This document shows, piece after piece, positions 17,973 through 25,552 of a DNA stretch of 32,085 nucleotides. The position numbers were made by a program, and so were the translations under genes. The DNA lies in assembly GCA_945273835.1 (NCBI GenBank), contig CALYPL010000021.1:1-32085 (forward strand). Direction: 5' to 3'. The stretch comes from an uncultured Dysgonomonas sp. (GTDB lineage: Bacteria; Bacteroidota; Bacteroidia; Bacteroidales; Dysgonomonadaceae). The first letter of the stretch is position 1; the number at the start of each line of letters is the position of its first letter. Under the pieces are notes generated by a model. That model had not been told where the DNA came from and did not search any database. It saw only the letters and a list, made by a program, of their open reading frames with translations.

Positions 17973-18294
17973 CTGAACAAAATATTTAGTATGATAAATT
18001 TACAAATATTGTAATAATTAAGTGTTAAAATCAATATTTGTTAAACTTATATTTTATAATTAGGTTAATCTATCTGTATATTTTAACTTTTTTAGATATC
18101 ATTGTGTTATATATTATTGTCCTGTATGTATATTTTGTGATAAATTCTTTTGATTTTTAAGCAAAAATCGTGTCATTTTGATAAAAACAATACATTTTTT
18201 TATTTCAATCAAATAAGCTAAAGAAAAAATTATATTTTTATTTTTTTTATGAAAGTATAATTCTTTAATTGCTTAATTGTTAAATTATGTTTGT
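17973..18294. other. AT-rich intergenic region with two small palindromes, before the SusC gene
   Basis: About 320 bp without a gene. TTACAA/TTGTAA (18000-18014) forms a 15-nt palindrome with a 3-nt centre, and GATTTTT/AAAAATC (18152-18169) a second with a 4-nt loop. The region must hold the feoAB 3' end and the promoter of the SusC operon. I find no confident TAnnTTTG site at a sensible distance; TATATTTTG near 18129-18137 has one extra spacer base. No GC-rich terminator for feoAB is visible. The palindromes could be operators or part of the mRNA ends. Confidence 0.5.
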
Positions 18295-21200
18295 ATGAAG
18301 AAGAAAGTATTGTTGTTCTTATCCTGCTTTTTCGTAAGCTTAGGATATATAATTGCGCAGACGACCGTTTCGTCAGGGACGGTCATTGATGGAGGCGGTG
18401 AGCCAGTTATTGGTGCATCCGTTTCAGTAAAAGGTACAACTGTCGGCACAATTACCGATATTGATGGGAAATTTACACTTAATGTACCTAAAGGTAAAGA
18501 TATATTGGTCTTTTCACTAATAGGTCTTCGCTCAGTAGAGCATAAAGCTTCGTCTAATATGCAAATTGTAATGGAAGAAGATTCCAGATTATTGGATGAA
18601 GTAGTTGTAACAGCTTTGGGTATCAAACGTTCAGAAAAAGCTTTAGGTTTTGCTGCTACAAATATATCGAGCGAAGATTTAACGAAGAATAGATCTACAG
18701 ACCTTATATCAGGCTTGAGCGGGCGTGTTGCAGGTGTTCAAATTGCAAAATCATCACAAACACCCGGCTCTTCAACCTCAGTCGTTATTCGTGGATTCTC
18801 TTCATTAAGCGGGAACAATCAACCTTTATATATTATTGATGGAACTCCATTAACCAATAAAGCAACCTATTCTAATGATGGATTAAATAATTCTTATGAT
18901 TTTGGGAACGGTGCAAATGCTATTAATCCAGAGGATATAGCTTCAATGACAATTTTAAAGGGAGCCGCTGCTACTGCGTTATATGGTAGTCGCGCTGCAA
19001 ATGGTGCTATAATTATAACAACTAAATCCGGTGATTCAAAATTTGCCGGATTAAATGTCGAGTATAATGGAGGTATGGATTTCTCAAGAGTTTATAAATT
19101 ACCTAAATTTCAGAATGAATACGGTATGGGATGGAATGGTAATTATACAACAATTGAGAACGGAAGTTGGGGCCCTCGTTTTGATGGGTCTATGCAAGTA
19201 TATGGACCTAAATATAATAATTCTCAACTCATAAAACCTTTTGTAGCACAAAAAAATAATTTAAAAGAGTTTTTCGATACGGGAGTTCAGTATACAAATA
19301 GTGTATCCTTATCAGGGAGTGGAAAAGATACAGAATTTTTTGGTTCTTTTTCTCAACTAAGTCAAAATGGAATTTATCCGACAAATGCAGATGAAAATGA
19401 TCGATATACATTTGCTTTAAGAGGAAGTCACAAAGTGAAGGATTTGACAGTTAGTGCCTCAATGAACTATGCGAATCAGGTAACTAATAATGTTGCATCC
19501 GGTCAAGGAATGGCTATGATGAGTTCATTGTATCAAACTCCTCGTGATATTAGTCTAATAGATTTGAAAGATTTAAATAATCCATTTAACAGTTTAGATT
19601 ATTATTATACACCATATGGTGTAATGAATCCTTATCAGTGGCTAAAGTCAGAAATGCGTAATTTTAAATCTGATAGATTATTTGGAAATGTCAATTTGAA
19701 TTATAGCTTTTTGAAATTTTTCAATTTTTCCTATCGTTTAGGTCTTGATTTGAGCTCTAACAGAATTAAAGAGGGATCTCCAAATTATTCTAAATTAACG
19801 AATCCCAACACGATTAATTATCAACAAAATTTTAAAGAAAAGAAAGGGCGAGTATCAGTTGAAAATAACAAATTGAGAGAATTGAATCATGATTTTATCC
19901 TAACATTTGATATGCCTATTCAAGACTTTCATATTAATGCTATTGCAGGTTTTAATGCAAATGAAAGGAAATCAAGTAGAGATAAGACTTCCATTTCAGA
20001 TTTAGACATACCTACTTGGTTTAATTTAAGCAATTCTGCATCAACTCCTCTTGCAGACCAGGAAGAAGAGCGAAGAAGACTTGTTGGAGTTTTTGGACAA
20101 GCTGAATTAGGCTATAAAAGTTTAGCCTATTTAACGGTATCAGCACGTAACGACTGGTCTTCAACGTTACCAAAAGATAATAATAGCTTTTTTTATCCGG
20201 GTGTAACAGGTAGCTTAATCTTTACAGAGTTGATAAAAGAGGATAAAATTAAAAATATTATATCGTTTGGAAAGCTGAGACTTGCATGGGGGCAAACTGG
20301 TAATGATGCATCACCTTATATGATTGAACCATATTATGAAAAAACTGATATAAGTATGGGATTTGGTCGTCAAACATTTCCTTTCAATGGAATAAACGGT
20401 TTTACCTTAGCTAACAGATTGGGAAATAATAAACTTCAACCCGAAATTACAACCGAGACTGAAGCAGGTTTGAATTTTTCTTTACTCAAAGGTCGAATAT
20501 CTGTTGATGCGGCATACTATAATAGAAATTCTAATAAACAAATTTTTACTTTAGATATGGATCCCGCCACAGGATACAACTCACAAACCATAAATTTAGG
20601 AAAAATAAGAAATAGAGGAGTTGAACTATTAGTGAATGTGAGACCAATTGAAATAAATGATTTTTCATGGGATATTGCGTGGAACTTTACCAAGAATAAT
20701 AGTAAAGTTATTAGCTTACCTCCTGAACTTGGAGGCACAACATCCATATTTGGTTTAACAGGTGGAGTAAGTTTAAATGCTATAGTAGGTTATCCCATCG
20801 GAACATTCAAATCCGTAGTTCCTCAGAAAACTGATGATGGGAAACTTATTGTTGATAATAATGGTCTCCCAATAATGACAGGGGATCAACAAATAATTGG
20901 TAACATCAATTATGATTATGAAATGGGTATATCCAGCACTTTTAAATATAAATGGTTTAGTTTAAGTGCAGATTTTGATTTTCGACATGGAGGTTTGATG
21001 TATAGTAATACGAAAAATATAAATTATTTTGTTGGTAATGCAATTCAGACAACTTATAATGAACGTAATACTTTTATTGTACCCAATTCAGTATACAATA
21101 CCGGTAAATTAGACAATAACGGAAAACCTATTTATGCCGAAAATGTAACTCCTGTTTCATCGGAAAATGTTTATAAATTTTGGAATAATGGTGGTTTTGA

Positions 21201-21477
21201 AGGTAGTACATATTCATTGATAGATAAGTCATATGTTAAATTACGATCAGTAGTTTTAGGTTTTGATTTACCTAAAATGTGGTTAAAAAATACTTTTATT
21301 CGAAATGCTTATATCTCAATATATGGAACAAATTTATTTGTATGGACTCCTAATGGAAACACGTTTGTTGATCCCGAAACATCTTCTTTCGGAAATGATT
21401 TGAAGGGTCGTTTCGGAGAATATAATACGATGCCATCAACTCGTAATTTTGGCTTTAACGTAAAAGTTAAATTTTAA
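18295..21477 (+). CDS. SusC/RagA-family TonB-dependent outer-membrane transporter
   Basis: 1060 residues from the ATG at 18295; an in-frame TTG at 18277 is rejected because the ATG opens a normal signal peptide (MKKKVLLFLSCFFVSLGYIIAQ region). A CarboxypepD-regulatory-like domain follows (GGGEPVIGASVSVKGTTVG to MQIVMEED), then the TonB box region LDEVVVTALGIKR. The plug has LSGRVAGVQIAKSS, VVIRGFSSLSGNNQPLYIID and ILKGAAATALYGSRAANGAI, and the beta-barrel follows. It forms the barrel under a SusD lid and imports oligomers using TonB. The SusD gene starts 12 bp downstream. With the two following lipoproteins the set resembles BT2264-BT2261, reported with bound peptides, so peptides are a better guess than glycans. 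No glycoside hydrolase lies beside it. SusC identity is firm. Confidence 0.95.
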   Translation: MKKKVLLFLSCFFVSLGYIIAQTTVSSGTVIDGGGEPVIGASVSVKGTTVGTITDIDGKFTLNVPKGKDILVFSLIGLRSVEHKASSNMQIVMEEDSRLLDEVVVTALGIKRSEKALGFAATNISSEDLTKNRSTDLISGLSGRVAGVQIAKSSQTPGSSTSVVIRGFSSLSGNNQPLYIIDGTPLTNKATYSNDGLNNSYDFGNGANAINPEDIASMTILKGAAATALYGSRAANGAIIITTKSGDSKFAGLNVEYNGGMDFSRVYKLPKFQNEYGMGWNGNYTTIENGSWGPRFDGSMQVYGPKYNNSQLIKPFVAQKNNLKEFFDTGVQYTNSVSLSGSGKDTEFFGSFSQLSQNGIYPTNADENDRYTFALRGSHKVKDLTVSASMNYANQVTNNVASGQGMAMMSSLYQTPRDISLIDLKDLNNPFNSLDYYYTPYGVMNPYQWLKSEMRNFKSDRLFGNVNLNYSFLKFFNFSYRLGLDLSSNRIKEGSPNYSKLTNPNTINYQQNFKEKKGRVSVENNKLRELNHDFILTFDMPIQDFHINAIAGFNANERKSSRDKTSISDLDIPTWFNLSNSASTPLADQEEERRRLVGVFGQAELGYKSLAYLTVSARNDWSSTLPKDNNSFFYPGVTGSLIFTELIKEDKIKNIISFGKLRLAWGQTGNDASPYMIEPYYEKTDISMGFGRQTFPFNGINGFTLANRLGNNKLQPEITTETEAGLNFSLLKGRISVDAAYYNRNSNKQIFTLDMDPATGYNSQTINLGKIRNRGVELLVNVRPIEINDFSWDIAWNFTKNNSKVISLPPELGGTTSIFGLTGGVSLNAIVGYPIGTFKSVVPQKTDDGKLIVDNNGLPIMTGDQQIIGNINYDYEMGISSTFKYKWFSLSADFDFRHGGLMYSNTKNINYFVGNAIQTTYNERNTFIVPNSVYNTGKLDNNGKPIYAENVTPVSSENVYKFWNNGGFEGSTYSLIDKSYVKLRSVVLGFDLPKMWLKNTFIRNAYISIYGTNLFVWTPNGNTFVDPETSSFGNDLKGRFGEYNTMPSTRNFGFNVKVKF

Positions 21478-21489
21478 ACAGAAAGACAA

Positions 21490-22962
21490 ATGAAAAAAAT
21501 ATTATTGCTGTTAATTATAAGCTCCCTGTTATTTAGTTGTAACGACTATTTAGATGTAAACAAAGATCCTAATAATCCAAATAATGTTGATATAAATCAG
21601 TTATTGCCGTCTGTCCAAGTTTTCATTGGTAGTGTTGTAGGCAATGATCTGTTTAATATGTCGGGATTTTTCGTTCAGTACACAGACCAAAATCCAGAAG
21701 CTAATCAATATAATGTTTTGGCAGAATACAATTTTCGTACTGATGTGTTTGATCGTAGTTATGCCAATATTTATTCAGGAGCATTAATGGATATAAAAAA
21801 AATTCAGGAAAAAGCATCTTTGAATAATGATTGGAATAATTATTATGCAGCTACTCTATTGAAAGCATACATATTGCAGGTTTTTGTTGATGTTATGGAT
21901 CAGGCTCCGTATTCTGAAGCACTAAACGGAGTTAATAATACAATGCCTAAATGGGATAAAGGAGAAGACATTTACAAAGGTATTTTGTCTGAAATTGATG
22001 AAGCAGAAAAAAAATTGTCTTCGGGTTTGAACGATATTTCATCTGATTTCTTATTGGATGGTAATATAAATAAATGGATACAATTTGGCAATGCTCTAAA
22101 ACTTAAGATATATATGCGCTCATCTAATGTTTGGGATAATAGTATTGCTGTTAAAAAACTAATAGATGAAAATAATTTTTTCGATGGAGATATAAAATTG
22201 GATATTTATAAAGATGAAAAGTCAAGACGTAATCCTTGGTATGAAACTAATATATCCGTTTTGTCCGCATCAAACCATGTAGCTTCCTATCCAATCATAT
22301 CTTATTTGAAAAAAACAAATGATCCTCGTATTTCATCAATATTCAATAAGGCTAAAAAATCATCAACTTTTGAAGGAGAAATACCGGGTTCAAAGTCCCA
22401 ACTACAAAAGAAATTAGAAGATTTTAGCACAATAAAAGCTTGGGCTACAAAACCTGTGTATTTTTACACTCAAAGCGAATTACAATTTTTTATTTCAGAA
22501 GCATATTTACGTTATTATAACGATGATATTAGAGCTAAGAAAGCATACGAAGCCGCAATTCAAGCAAATTTTGCAACTCGTAATGTAAGTAATCCATCGG
22601 TAATATATGGTTCAGGACAATCCGCAGAATGGAACTCTTCGTCTACACAAAGTCAAAAGATAGAGTTGATAGGAATGCAAAAATGGGTTGCTGCTTGTAT
22701 GATTAATAACACTGAAGCATGGGCTGAGATGCGTAGGTTGGATATTCCTAAACTATCTGTTTATAGTGCAAATGATATTAATAAAAACCCTCTTATATAT
22801 GAATCAGGCGATATAATTTCACCAATGGTGAATTCACTTGGTGAAGGGAAATTGGTAAAACGCTTATATTATCCACAAAAATCTATAAATTTAAATAAAA
22901 ATACACCTAAAAATGACCCTCCGGCAACAATCACACAAAATATTTGGTGGGATATAAATTAA
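21490..22962 (+). CDS. SusD/RagB-like substrate-binding lipoprotein
   Basis: 490 residues. The lipobox LLFSC (C17) is followed by NDYLDVNKDPNNPN, a very typical SusD start. FFVQYTDQNPEANQY, YANIYSGALMDIKKIQ and ALKLKIYMRSS fit the SusD-like_2 (TPR-containing) branch, and TQSELQFFISEAYLRY and AWAEMRRLDIPKL lie in the C-terminal half. As an outer-membrane surface lipoprotein it would close over the SusC barrel and capture substrate. It sits 12 bp after the SusC gene and just before a small lipoprotein gene (start 22982), so one operon is expected. No catalytic domain is present. Identity is firm; the ligand is unknown, with peptide favoured from the operon's resemblance to BT2263. Confidence 0.94.
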   Translation: MKKILLLLIISSLLFSCNDYLDVNKDPNNPNNVDINQLLPSVQVFIGSVVGNDLFNMSGFFVQYTDQNPEANQYNVLAEYNFRTDVFDRSYANIYSGALMDIKKIQEKASLNNDWNNYYAATLLKAYILQVFVDVMDQAPYSEALNGVNNTMPKWDKGEDIYKGILSEIDEAEKKLSSGLNDISSDFLLDGNINKWIQFGNALKLKIYMRSSNVWDNSIAVKKLIDENNFFDGDIKLDIYKDEKSRRNPWYETNISVLSASNHVASYPIISYLKKTNDPRISSIFNKAKKSSTFEGEIPGSKSQLQKKLEDFSTIKAWATKPVYFYTQSELQFFISEAYLRYYNDDIRAKKAYEAAIQANFATRNVSNPSVIYGSGQSAEWNSSSTQSQKIELIGMQKWVAACMINNTEAWAEMRRLDIPKLSVYSANDINKNPLIYESGDIISPMVNSLGEGKLVKRLYYPQKSINLNKNTPKNDPPATITQNIWWDIN

Positions 22963-22981
22963 TTATATAATATTGAAGAAA

Positions 22982-23707
22982 ATGAAAATAAGTATTAAAA
23001 TATTATTAATAATCGGTTTATCAATACTTTTAGCAAGTTGTAGCGATGACTCAACCAAAGATGTATCAAGAGTAACGTACTATGTGGAAATAAAACTTGT
23101 TAAAGACAGTGCATATTATTTATTGCCTTTGGGTAAACCGTATATTGAACCGGGTTATATTGGTATAGAAGATGGCCAAGATGTTACATCCAAAATTAAA
23201 GTAGAAGGGAATGTCGATTATAACAAAATAGGGTTATACAATATAAATTATACCGCAGTAAACAAAGATGGCTTTAGTAGTAGTGTAGCTAGAACCGTTG
23301 TTGTATATGACCCTTCAATATCGATCCAATTATCTGGTAATTATAAGACGATGCCCGGAACTAAAAGAATTGATAATACATCTGAAACAACAAAAGATTT
23401 CAGTAAAGAATGTAACATAACCTTAACCGAAGTTGCTGCTGGAATTTATTCTGTTTCAGATTTATTAGGAGGATATTATAGTCAGATTGTTTATCCACAA
23501 TATGGAGCAAGAGCTGCAATGAAAGGATACATTTCCGTGAATAAAGACAATAATCTTACTCTTCTTCAATCAAATATTGAACTTTTTGAAGATTCTTTGG
23601 ACAATTTTTCAGGTAAAGTTGAAGCATCAGGTAAAAAGATTGAATGGATAGCTAAATATGCTTCACGTTATGATTTCGATATATTTTTAGAATCAAAAGC
23701 CGAATAA
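22982..23707 (+). CDS. Ig-like (DUF5011/5012-type, BT_2262-like) surface lipoprotein
   Basis: 241 residues from the ATG at 22982; a TTG at 22973 in frame is less likely. The lipobox LLASC (C20) is followed by SDDSTKD, an acidic tract fitting surface export. The N-terminal half is a bacterial Ig-like domain: PYIEPGYIGIEDGQDVTSKI, then GLYNINYTAVNKDGFSSSVA and a VVVYDPS linker. The C-terminal half (from about ISIQLSGNYKTM) reads as a beta-rich domain with GGYYSQIVYPQYGARAAMKG. The layout fits the BT_2262 family, an accessory lipoprotein of a SusCD complex. It lies third in the operon. It is not an enzyme as far as can be seen and may help hold or guide substrate at the cell surface. Family call is moderate. 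Confidence 0.75.
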   Translation: MKISIKILLIIGLSILLASCSDDSTKDVSRVTYYVEIKLVKDSAYYLLPLGKPYIEPGYIGIEDGQDVTSKIKVEGNVDYNKIGLYNINYTAVNKDGFSSSVARTVVVYDPSISIQLSGNYKTMPGTKRIDNTSETTKDFSKECNITLTEVAAGIYSVSDLLGGYYSQIVYPQYGARAAMKGYISVNKDNNLTLLQSNIELFEDSLDNFSGKVEASGKKIEWIAKYASRYDFDIFLESKAE

Positions 23708-23727
23708 AAATTACAAAATAACTATAT

Positions 23728-24222
23728 ATGAAAAAAACAATAATACTAAATTTACTTTTATGTTGTTTGACTTCCTTTTTAGTAAGTTGTGATGATAATG
23801 ACATAAAACCGGGAGGTACAAGCGTTGAAAAAATGGCTGGAGATTGGTGGGTTATGTTAAGAGATGAAAGCGGAACCGATCAATTAAAAGTAAGAGCTAA
23901 ACTTTATACCTATAATACAGCTTCTAATGTTAGTACAGAAATGTTTGTAGATGATAAAAAAGGATTTAGTACATTAAAAGGGAAGGTTCAAGTAGATTAT
24001 AAATCGAAAACTTTTTTTACAAATGATTTTGTGCAAAATCTCTATAATCAAGATAATCCTTTTAAAATATATGAAGGTAAGATTTTAGCAAACGCAGGAA
24101 AATCTAAATCAGGCAAGCCGGTAGATAGTATATATATAAAACTTGAATTTAAAAATGAACCCGGAGTGAAATATATTATAGCAGGAACACGTAAAACGGG
24201 ATTTCCTGCAGATGATTATTAA
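23728..24222 (+). CDS. lipid-binding-like (BT_2261-like) lipoprotein
   Basis: 164 residues. The lipobox FLVSC (C21) is followed by DDNDIKPGG, again acidic right after the cysteine. The mature part is a small lipocalin-like beta domain opening with MAGDWWVMLRDESG, with TFFTNDFVQNLYN and GKPVDSIYIKLEF later. This matches the putative lipid-binding hydrolase family that includes BT_2261; despite that name no catalytic motif is seen here. It is the last gene of the SusC operon, 20 bp after the Ig-like lipoprotein, and is followed by a strong terminator. It is probably a surface accessory subunit of the transporter. Family call is moderate, function unknown. Confidence 0.75.
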   Translation: MKKTIILNLLLCCLTSFLVSCDDNDIKPGGTSVEKMAGDWWVMLRDESGTDQLKVRAKLYTYNTASNVSTEMFVDDKKGFSTLKGKVQVDYKSKTFFTNDFVQNLYNQDNPFKIYEGKILANAGKSKSGKPVDSIYIKLEFKNEPGVKYIIAGTRKTGFPADDY

Positions 24223-24345: not shown

Positions 24346-24498
24346 ATGCAAGAAATATTAGTAGCCATCATAGGAATTGTTGTCGGGGCGATAATTATTT
24401 ACAAAATATACGGATTCTTTTTTTCAAAAAATCCGAAAACAGGCAGTTGCGGTTGTAGTAATTGTCATTGTAGTTCGGCTAAAAAGCATGTAAAATAA
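24346..24498 (+). CDS. FeoB-associated Cys-rich membrane protein
   Basis: A 50-residue ORF. It starts MQEILVAIIGIVVGAIIIYK, one transmembrane helix, followed by IYGFFFSKNP and a Cys-rich tail, SCGCSNCHCSS, with C35, C37, C40 and C42. This helix-plus-cysteine layout is that of the FeoB-associated Cys-rich membrane protein family, which usually sits directly after feoB and is thought to help ferrous iron uptake; its mechanism is not established. Here it is 6.4 kb from feoAB, separated by the SusC-SusD operon, and downstream of that operon's terminator. A near-consensus TATCTTTA (24311-24318) could be its promoter. The four cysteines could bind a metal. The call rests on the layout and on feoAB being on the same side of the locus. 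Confidence 0.8.
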   Translation: MQEILVAIIGIVVGAIIIYKIYGFFFSKNPKTGSCGCSNCHCSSAKKHVK

Positions 24499-24525
24499 TC
24501 CAAAAATATTTTGTAGATAAGAATA

Positions 24526-24556
24526 TTGTCTCTATTTTTGATTTAGAAATTCTTTG
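24526..24556 (+). promoter_or_regulatory. candidate promoter of the structured RNA
   Basis: TTG at 24526-24528 and TTCTTTG ending at 24556 are separated by about 20 bp, fitting a Bacteroidetes -33/-7 pair, although the first two bases of the -7 box do not match TAnnTTTG. Transcription would start near 24562, just before the closing stem of the RNA. Confidence 0.4.
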
Positions 24557-24562
24557 AAATAG

Positions 24563-24753
24563 TAAGAGTCTTAGTCGTATTGGCCGATTGGGGAACCTAA
24601 CAAGTAATAAATAATACCGAGACAAGCTTTTGATTTCAATGGCGGGCCACACTCTTACAGAGTTGCCTTAGGCACAGTGGATTACAGCGAAACCGAAGCA
24701 CTCAAATCCTGTTTATCAGGGTTTCATCCATATCTTACCAATACGACTTTTTT
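24563..24753 (+). ncRNA. structured ncRNA of about 190 nt, possibly 6S-like
   Basis: The ends pair perfectly: AGTCGTATTGG (24573-24583) with CCAATACGACT (24738-24748), 11 bp, followed by six Ts, so the closing stem doubles as a terminator. Inside, CCAC/GTGG (24647-24650 and 24677-24680) encloses two perfect hairpins, ACTCT-TAC-AGAGT (24651-24663) and TGCC-TTA-GGCA (24664-24674). A third hairpin pairs AAATCCTG (24704-24711) with CAGGGTTT (24717-24724). No long ORF fits. Length, paired ends and a small hairpin on the 3' side are features of 6S RNA and of the Bacteroidales-1 type RNA motif, but I cannot match a consensus from memory, and the branched centre is not the plain rod of E. coli 6S. 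It is not a tRNA, tmRNA, SRP RNA or RNase P RNA by motif. An RNA gene is likely; the family is open. Confidence 0.7.
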
Positions 24754-24761
24754 ATATGATG

Positions 24762-24795
24762 ACAGATTGCTTATAAACAGGCGATCTGTTTTTTT
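24762..24795 (+). terminator. second, tandem Rho-independent terminator
   Basis: ACAGATTGC (24762-24770) pairs with GCGATCTGT (24781-24789), nine pairs including one G-T, around a 10-nt loop and followed by seven Ts. It lies 9 bp after the T-run of the structured RNA and before the pyrE promoter, so it backs up termination of the RNA. Confidence 0.75.
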
Positions 24796-24861
24796 ATGCC
24801 TTGAATTCACAGATTAACTTTTTCTTCGACAACTTTTTATCCATAATCCCCAATATTTGCA

Positions 24862-24869
24862 TATATTTG
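24862..24869 (+). promoter_or_regulatory. -7 promoter element for the pyrE operon
   Basis: TATATTTG is an exact TAnnTTTG match, 44 bp before the pyrE ATG and downstream of the tandem terminators, so it likely drives pyrE, the SRPBCC gene and argH. Confidence 0.55.
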
Positions 24870-24913
24870 TGAAAGAAAAAGAGACTACGGATTAATTTTA
24901 CTGATTTAACAAA

Positions 24914-25552
24914 ATGAAGACCTTAGAAAAATTCACAGCCGAGAAACTTCTTGCAATACGTGCTATAAAATTACAACCGTCAAACCCTTTCACATGGGCA
25001 TCAGGCTGGAAAGCTCCGATTTATTGTGACAACCGTAAACTTATATCTTATCCTAAGATACGTACTTTCCTGAAGATCGAATTAAGTCGGTTGGTTATAG
25101 AGCATTTCCCGGATGTAGAAGCCATAGCTGGAGTAGCTACAGGAGCTATTGCAACAGGAATCTTGGTGGCTGACGCATTAGGATTACCTTTTGTTTATAT
25201 ACGTTCAACGCCCAAAGACCATGGACTTGAAAACCTCATTGAAGGAGAATTGAAGCCTAATAGTAAAGTCGTGGTGATAGAAGATCTTATATCAACAGGC
25301 AGCAGCAGCCTGAAAGCGGCTGAAGCAATACGCCGTGACGGTTCGGAAGTAATCGGTATGGTAGCTAATTTCACATACGGATTTCCGGTGGCAACAAACG
25401 CTTTTAAAAAAGCAGATATTGAATTAATTACACTTACAAACTACGATTTTATCTTGGATGAAGCTCTACGCATTAATTACATTACAGAAGATGATCTTGT
25501 TACATTACAAGAGTGGAGAAGTAATCCGGAACAATGGGGTAAGCAATTTTAG
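24914..25552 (+). CDS. pyrE: orotate phosphoribosyltransferase
   Basis: 212 residues, normal for PyrE. It joins orotate and PRPP to give orotidine 5'-monophosphate in pyrimidine synthesis. The opening FTAEKLLAIRAIKLQPSNPF and WASGWKAPIYCDNRK are typical, GVATGAIATG lies in the middle, and the PRPP-binding motif VVIEDLISTGSS is at 120-131. It acts in the cytoplasm. It is first of three plus-strand genes; the SRPBCC gene starts 5 bp after its stop. The pairing of pyrE with an SRPBCC gene and argH is familiar in Bacteroidales. Identity is firm. Confidence 0.96.
   Translation: MKTLEKFTAEKLLAIRAIKLQPSNPFTWASGWKAPIYCDNRKLISYPKIRTFLKIELSRLVIEHFPDVEAIAGVATGAIATGILVADALGLPFVYIRSTPKDHGLENLIEGELKPNSKVVVIEDLISTGSSSLKAAEAIRRDGSEVIGMVANFTYGFPVATNAFKKADIELITLTNYDFILDEALRINYITEDDLVTLQEWRSNPEQWGKQF

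Follow-up and report, generated by a model that had tools for sequence, protein, structure and literature searches.

What is the compact structured RNA that appears to be encoded just upstream of pyrE in an uncultured Dysgonomonas sp., and how might it act? The window, that is, the whole stretch of 32,085 nt analysed here, had previously been read from its letters, and an element of about 190 nt (24563-24753) had been attributed either to the 6S group of small RNAs or to an uncharacterised Bacteroidales RNA, with 6S RNA and the Bacteroidales-1 motif named as being of similar size and having paired ends. We find that the RNA at 24573-24754 is very probably the 6S RNA gene of this Bacteroidales bacterium, 6S function included; binding of the polymerase and templating of product RNAs are properties that we infer for it from 6S RNAs elsewhere. 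6S RNA acts as a global brake on transcription, apparently by imitating a promoter and keeping hold of RNA polymerase until conditions recover. Bacteroidota differ from E. coli in their main sigma factor and in their promoters, and a well-defined Bacteroidota 6S fold therefore makes it possible to ask which features of promoter mimicry are universal. The kind of RNA is already known, and the find is an ordinary, good example of a Bacteroidales 6S RNA; what is added here is a fuller fold backed by covariation, an improved search model and a proposed release switch that can be tested.

A search with Rfam covariance models had been proposed as the check on the earlier assignment, and in a scan of the window against all Rfam families the sole match above cut-off was exactly one of the families it had named, Bacteroidales-1 (RF01693; 123.1 bits, gathering cut-off 60, E 2.8e-20), aligned over model positions 1-179 of 179. 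Rfam describes this family with the words '6S-Bacteroidales RNA suggested'. A permissive Rfam scan of 24400-24900 returned three further matches, each far under its own cut-off; canonical 6S (RF00013) was absent from this region at E up to 10 and from the window's genome, in which 6S-Flavo (RF01685) had no match anywhere either. BLAST and the RF01693 search agree on a single copy of the Bacteroidales-1 RNA in that genome, and the RF01693 and rebuilt-model searches (see below) gave one match in each matching genome; a Dysgonomonas hofstadii record (NZ_JACIEP010000006.1) also carries the RNA. Bacteroides thetaiotaomicron belongs to the same order as the window's organism. Its 2020 transcriptome refers to 'the Bacteroides 6S RNA' and to two classes of product RNA, pRNA and pRNA* (PMC7366714). 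The main-text passages of that report name no Rfam family; that its 6S RNA corresponds to RF01693 is suggested by a control genome, Bacteroides ihuae, which matches RF01693 and neither RF00013 nor RF01685. Bacteroidales-1 RNA is moreover annotated in Porphyromonas gingivalis strains (PMC5771137). With the family known in Rfam and a B. thetaiotaomicron 6S RNA published (PMC7366714), the alternative of an uncharacterised Bacteroidales RNA can be dropped.

The elements of the RNA and its surroundings are collected in Table 1. The perfect 11-bp closing stem, the CCAC/GTGG stem with its two hairpins, the third hairpin of 8 bp, and the T-run followed by a second terminator had all been seen in the sequence-only reading and are all present. 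CCAC (24647-24650) pairs with GTGG (24677-24680) and encloses two adjacent hairpins, ACTCT/AGAGT (24651-24655/24659-24663) and TGCC/GGCA (24664-24667/24671-24674); together with GAG/CTC (24619-24621/24701-24703) and a stem already modelled by Rfam, these make up the apical arm. The 8-bp hairpin on the 3' side is formed by 24704-24711 and 24717-24724. The view that no open reading frame explains the region is borne out as well: five frames of 21-57 residues each overlap it (search minimum 20), none was judged a gene, and a coding origin was rejected.

Table 1. Features of the 6S RNA locus and its surroundings (positions in the window)
Feature	Position	Strand	Basis or remark
sigma-ABfr-type promoter motif	24510..24540	+	TTTG and TAnnTTTG read directly
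Bacteroidales-1 6S RNA (RF01693)	24573..24754	+	covariance match, 123.1 bits
closing stem P1, 5' strand	24573..24583	+	pairs with 24738-24748
helix P2, 5' strand, edge of central bubble	24592..24598	+	pairs with 24719-24725
central bubble, 5' side; likely product-RNA template	24599..24618	+	unpaired in consensus structure
apical arm	24619..24703	+	Rfam alignment, covariation
3' bubble hairpin H3, AAAUCCUG/CAGGGUUU in the window	24704..24724	+	exclusive with P2
helix P2, 3' strand	24719..24725	+	same bases can form 3' hairpin instead
closing stem P1, 3' strand; with T-run 24748-24753, first terminator	24738..24748	+	sequence, covariation
back-up (second) terminator hairpin	24761..24790	+	12 pairs and T-run
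TATATTTG, likely -7 box of a separate pyrE promoter, 3' of both terminators	24862..24869	+	TAnnTTTG search
pyrE	24914-25552		TIGR00336 above cut-off

The folding energy of 24573-24754 has a z-score of -2.66 (3 of 200 shuffles equally good), and that of the span first proposed, 24563-24753, a z-score of -2.20 (7 of 200); comparative data provide the stronger evidence. Alignment A1 comprises 47 sequences of the genus and the order aligned by sequence alone, namely 11 same-genus loci found by BLAST and 36 of the 48 genomes matched by RF01693, the window's included; a second instance of the window (L029), the contig-cut locus L046 and 11 further weak hits (L052-L060, G077, G118) were omitted. Median pairwise identity was 66% in the earlier scripted alignment that preceded A1. 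When the closing stem P1, helix P2 and the arm are taken together, 92.7% of cells are paired and double changes occur at 30 of 38 pairs; the covariation score reaches 0.432, where shuffles average 0.224, none of 500 shuffles reaches any of the five measures used, and sliding the partner strands cuts pairing to 40-45%. P1 shows double changes at all 11 pairs, with 93.6% of cells paired, and the apical arm at 12 of 13 and at 3 of 4 pairs, its GAG-CUC pairing being invariant (47/47). In P2, 97.9% of cells are paired and 3 of 7 pairs have double changes, one of them in 7 sequences and two in one sequence each, one of these single sequences being the window itself (U-A to C-G). Because P2 covaries, its pairing matters. 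RNAalifold, run unconstrained on A1, picks 10 pairs of the closing stem together with P2 and the apical arm. The RF01693 consensus of Rfam pairs the apical arm only and leaves the closing stem and P2 unpaired. The rod, made of closing stem, P2, central bubble and apical arm, is thus shown by covariation among 47 relatives, on which the sequence-only reading had staked its stems and which leaves them standing.

Promoters read by the primary sigma factor of Bacteroidota carry TTTG at around -33 and TAnnTTTG at -7 (PMC7366714). The promoter that had been noticed ahead of the RNA is of this form: its -7-like box is TATTTTTG (24533-24540), and the -33-like TTTG (24510-24513) lies 19 nt apart from it. 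The start at 24563 does need correction, as the stem begins at 24573 and the TAnnTTTG box would place the likely start of transcription a few bases past 24540. A TAnnTTTG box occurs up to 60 nt upstream in 40 of 48 loci (those of A1 with L046 added back), compared with a mean of 3.1 and a maximum of 8 in shuffles. Near the RNA, the terminator search found one terminator, the hairpin at 24761-24790, against a shuffle mean of 0.2. Promoter motif and terminators are the sequence signals that would fit a transcription unit of its own, of about 200 nt. A sigma-70 promoter scan, which gave one site on the minus strand against a shuffle mean of 2.0, was not used.

How far does this fold reach beyond the order? 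A covariance model, R1, was built from the 47 sequences of A1 with the fuller structure, P1 and P2 added, and searched within the phylum. R1 finds a match in 108 of the order's 198 genomes, and these include all 48 matched by RF01693 in the same sample, although 36 of the 198, the window's among them, had been used in its training; the weakest counted match scores 34.9 bits and the next-best match elsewhere in the window 11.6 bits. Calibration differed between the two models, and the short run used for R1 makes its E-values approximate. Among 247 genomes sampled across the phylum, RF01685 was found in 30 and RF01693 in 6, three of the latter being weak hits outside the order that each lie on a 6S-Flavo hit; R1 was found in 33 (3 in the order and 30 outside). 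Outside the order R1 lands on 25 of the 30 6S-Flavo places and misses 5 RF01685 hits; its other five hits, all from one family, have no RF01685 match. These five genomes (G285, G320, G355, G395 and G403, with loci L094, L086 and L096 for G285, G320 and G403, respectively) showed neither RF01685 nor RF01693 at E up to 0.001. In the opposite direction, 32 of the 198 order genomes give an RF01685 hit at E up to 0.01, always below the family's cut-off, and 21 of these weak hits fall on R1 hits. The remaining eleven genomes (G115, G078, G044, G025, G141, G142, G158, G060, G126, G052 and G129) have no R1 hit, and a merged model may therefore reach further.

Alignment A2, made by sequence, contains 27 of the 30 R1 hits from outside the order, the other three not being given as loci. 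In these sequences, which were chosen by R1 and are thus biased towards its structure, and many of which are mutually close relatives, 9 of the 10 P1 pairs show double changes (98.9% paired), as does 1 of the 7 pairs of P2 (96.8% paired). RF01693 is absent at E up to 0.5 from the six strongest 6S-Flavo loci, in which RF01685 is present; in one of the six (L063), RF00013 also matches weakly where the RF01685 hit lies (25.8 bits against a cut-off of 46.4, E 0.11). Since RF00013 is absent from the window's region and RF01693 from these six loci, the link to 6S depends on R1 together with weak hits. RF00013 itself matches 2 of 198 genomes in the order (L039 and L040, on contigs of about 3 and 10 kb), possibly through contamination; neither locus has an R1 match at E up to 10. 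One of the two RF00013-positive genomes, G064, carries an R1 hit at another place as well. Across the phylum sample, 53 of 247 genomes match RF00013 at E up to 0.1, all of them below its cut-off, and R1 matched none of these genomes; this mutual exclusivity follows phylogeny and hence lends mild support only. Homology to a recognised 6S family is thus seen as 6S-Flavo places shared in both directions, mostly through weak or rebuilt-model hits, and to judge from these shared places RF01693 and RF01685 are best taken together as a single Bacteroidota 6S RNA. In practical terms, R1 is a covariance model that finds 108 instead of Rfam's 48 of the 198 order genomes and ties two Rfam families together. 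A more ambitious proposal, that Bacteroidales-1 and 6S-Flavo form one Bacteroidota-wide 6S family with a built-in switch between P2 and a 3' hairpin sharing the GAGUUU strand, and with a bubble tuned to a primary sigma factor that reads TAnnTTTG rather than sigma-70 boxes, is put forward tentatively, being on balance more doubtful than probable.

6S RNAs are described as rods that match the elements of an open promoter and whose bubble is copied into a product RNA, leading to release (PMC8876501). Abstracts of other 6S papers likewise describe a block of the polymerase. In E. coli 6S RNA the helix next to the bubble opens and its 3' strand joins a hairpin in the 3' bubble, driving release (PMC8876501). 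By analogy, the rod found here would resemble an opened promoter and would bind and block RNA polymerase carrying the primary sigma factor. When nucleotides return, the polymerase would transcribe a short product RNA from the bubble's 5' side (about 24599-24618), proceeding towards the 5' end of the RNA and opening P2. The freed GAGUUU strand (24719-24725) could then fold onto AAAUCC (24704-24709) as the 3' hairpin (H3), which might help to eject the RNA from the polymerase, as published for E. coli 6S.

The step from P2 to H3 is the least certain part of this scheme. The GAGUUU strand can pair either with the 5' strand of P2 or with AAAUCC, and the two states hinted at earlier by alternative AACC/GGTT pairings are plausible: the pairing named then lies within P2, which covaries (3 of 7 pairs), and the second state is conserved, though without covariation. 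In the register common to the relatives, 96.8% of H3 cells are paired in A1 and four of its six pairs never vary; H3 being nearly invariant, it has no support from covariation, and its level of pairing is reached by 104 of 500 shuffles. The 8-bp hairpin of the window is shifted by one on C-G pairs relative to this register. Folded in isolation it reaches -8.2 kcal/mol, with about 1% of shuffles equally good, whereas in most relatives the isolated energy is unremarkable (median 25% of shuffles equally good). With the 5' bubble forced to be unpaired in silico, a procedure that favours competing pairings by construction, H3 gains more than 0.2 pairs in 37 of 47 sequences, and in the window it rises only from 6.6 to 7.7 pairs. 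In the predicted ensembles of the free RNA, P2 is a minority pairing with a mean probability of 0.33, falling to 0.09 in the window, where H3 already forms. The energetic modelling of the switch is equivocal, and the P2/H3 step is, in our estimate, just short of an even chance.

A strong contender, itself below an even chance, is a 6S RNA that lacks this switch, in which the conserved strands would serve contact with sigma-ABfr or the polymerase, or templating of the product RNA, and release would occur by bubble collapse of the B. subtilis type or by unwinding. Such a model is narrower than the explanation preferred here and compatible with its 6S part. Sequence-specific protein contact would account equally well for the near-invariant columns of H3, P2 is weak in the predicted ensembles, and release of B. 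subtilis 6S-1 RNA is known to proceed differently (PMC8876501); against it, P2 covaries in both A1 and A2, and the H3 register retains its 96.8% of paired cells. As to promoter mimicry within the bubble, inspection by eye shows CAAA, the complement of TTTG, in the 3' bubble in all 47 rows of A1, and CTAAA in some rows of A2; CAAA is thus not constant in all A2 rows, and for that reason its role as a promoter-mimic motif is suggested here with reserve.

Set beside known systems, the RNA preferred here as a 6S RNA is like Bacteroidales-1 in its full-length match and the same conserved blocks, and unlike it in that the Rfam model lacks the closing stem and the P2 that covary here. With 6S-Flavo it has the closing stem and P2 in common, in addition to the 25 of 30 places on which R1 lands, but the window's RNA is longer than most of its relatives from outside the order, and RF01685 misses the window's genome. 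It is comparable to the B. thetaiotaomicron 6S RNA, for which two product-RNA classes are reported (PMC7366714). The 6S RNAs of E. coli and B. subtilis (RF00013) likewise are rods with a closing stem, a bubble and an apical arm, and that of E. coli has a bubble-adjacent helix whose 3' strand can form a 3' hairpin (PMC8876501), whereas the window's region has no RF00013 match. In the literature on 6S with Bacteroides or Bacteroidetes, titles and abstract openings of the matches listed, a set outside which a 2014 survey by Wehner et al. falls, mention for this group neither the closing stem nor P2 nor a union with 6S-Flavo. The 2014 survey reportedly contains predicted product RNAs.

Could the RNA instead be a structured Bacteroidales sRNA outside the 6S class, for example a trans-acting regulator that works by base pairing and happens to have a similar size and closed ends? 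When Bacteroidales-1 was tabulated as a structured RNA in 2010, with 6S-flavo in the same table, cis-regulation and switching were left open (PMC2864571), RF00013 fails to match, and the binding role assigned here is deduced from sequence. Nevertheless, the coincidence with 6S-Flavo places in both directions, the covarying rod with its central bubble, the occurrence of one match per matching genome and the 6S RNA with product RNAs reported in B. thetaiotaomicron (PMC7366714) make this improbable.

The position upstream of pyrE had been expected to hold in Bacteroidales and does not do so across the order. Within the flanking DNA examined, pyrE follows the RNA in 12 of the 13 loci from the same genus but in none of the other 44 (57 loci in all, including L046 and L052-L060, one of the 44 lacking downstream DNA). 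Although the RNA lies 160 bases upstream of pyrE in the window, contains two mutually exclusive pairings, and pyrE is under attenuator control in some other bacteria, a cis-acting pyrE leader (attenuator or riboswitch) toggling between them was rejected as extremely improbable, since pyrE follows in 0 of 44 loci outside the genus within the flanks examined, so that the RNA is no conserved pyrE leader, and since a second terminator and a separate TAnnTTTG box intervene between the two.

On its other side, the 6S RNA gene is directly preceded by a gene for a Cys-rich membrane protein of 50 residues (24346-24498), which adjoins the RNA in all 13 same-genus loci, as well as in one locus from a different genus of the family, and which weakly resembles, below cut-off, the FeoB-associated Cys-rich membrane protein PF12669. 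Further upstream (18277-24222) lies a TonB-dependent receptor/SusD-like locus that also encodes an Ig-like surface protein as well as a Lipid_bd protein.
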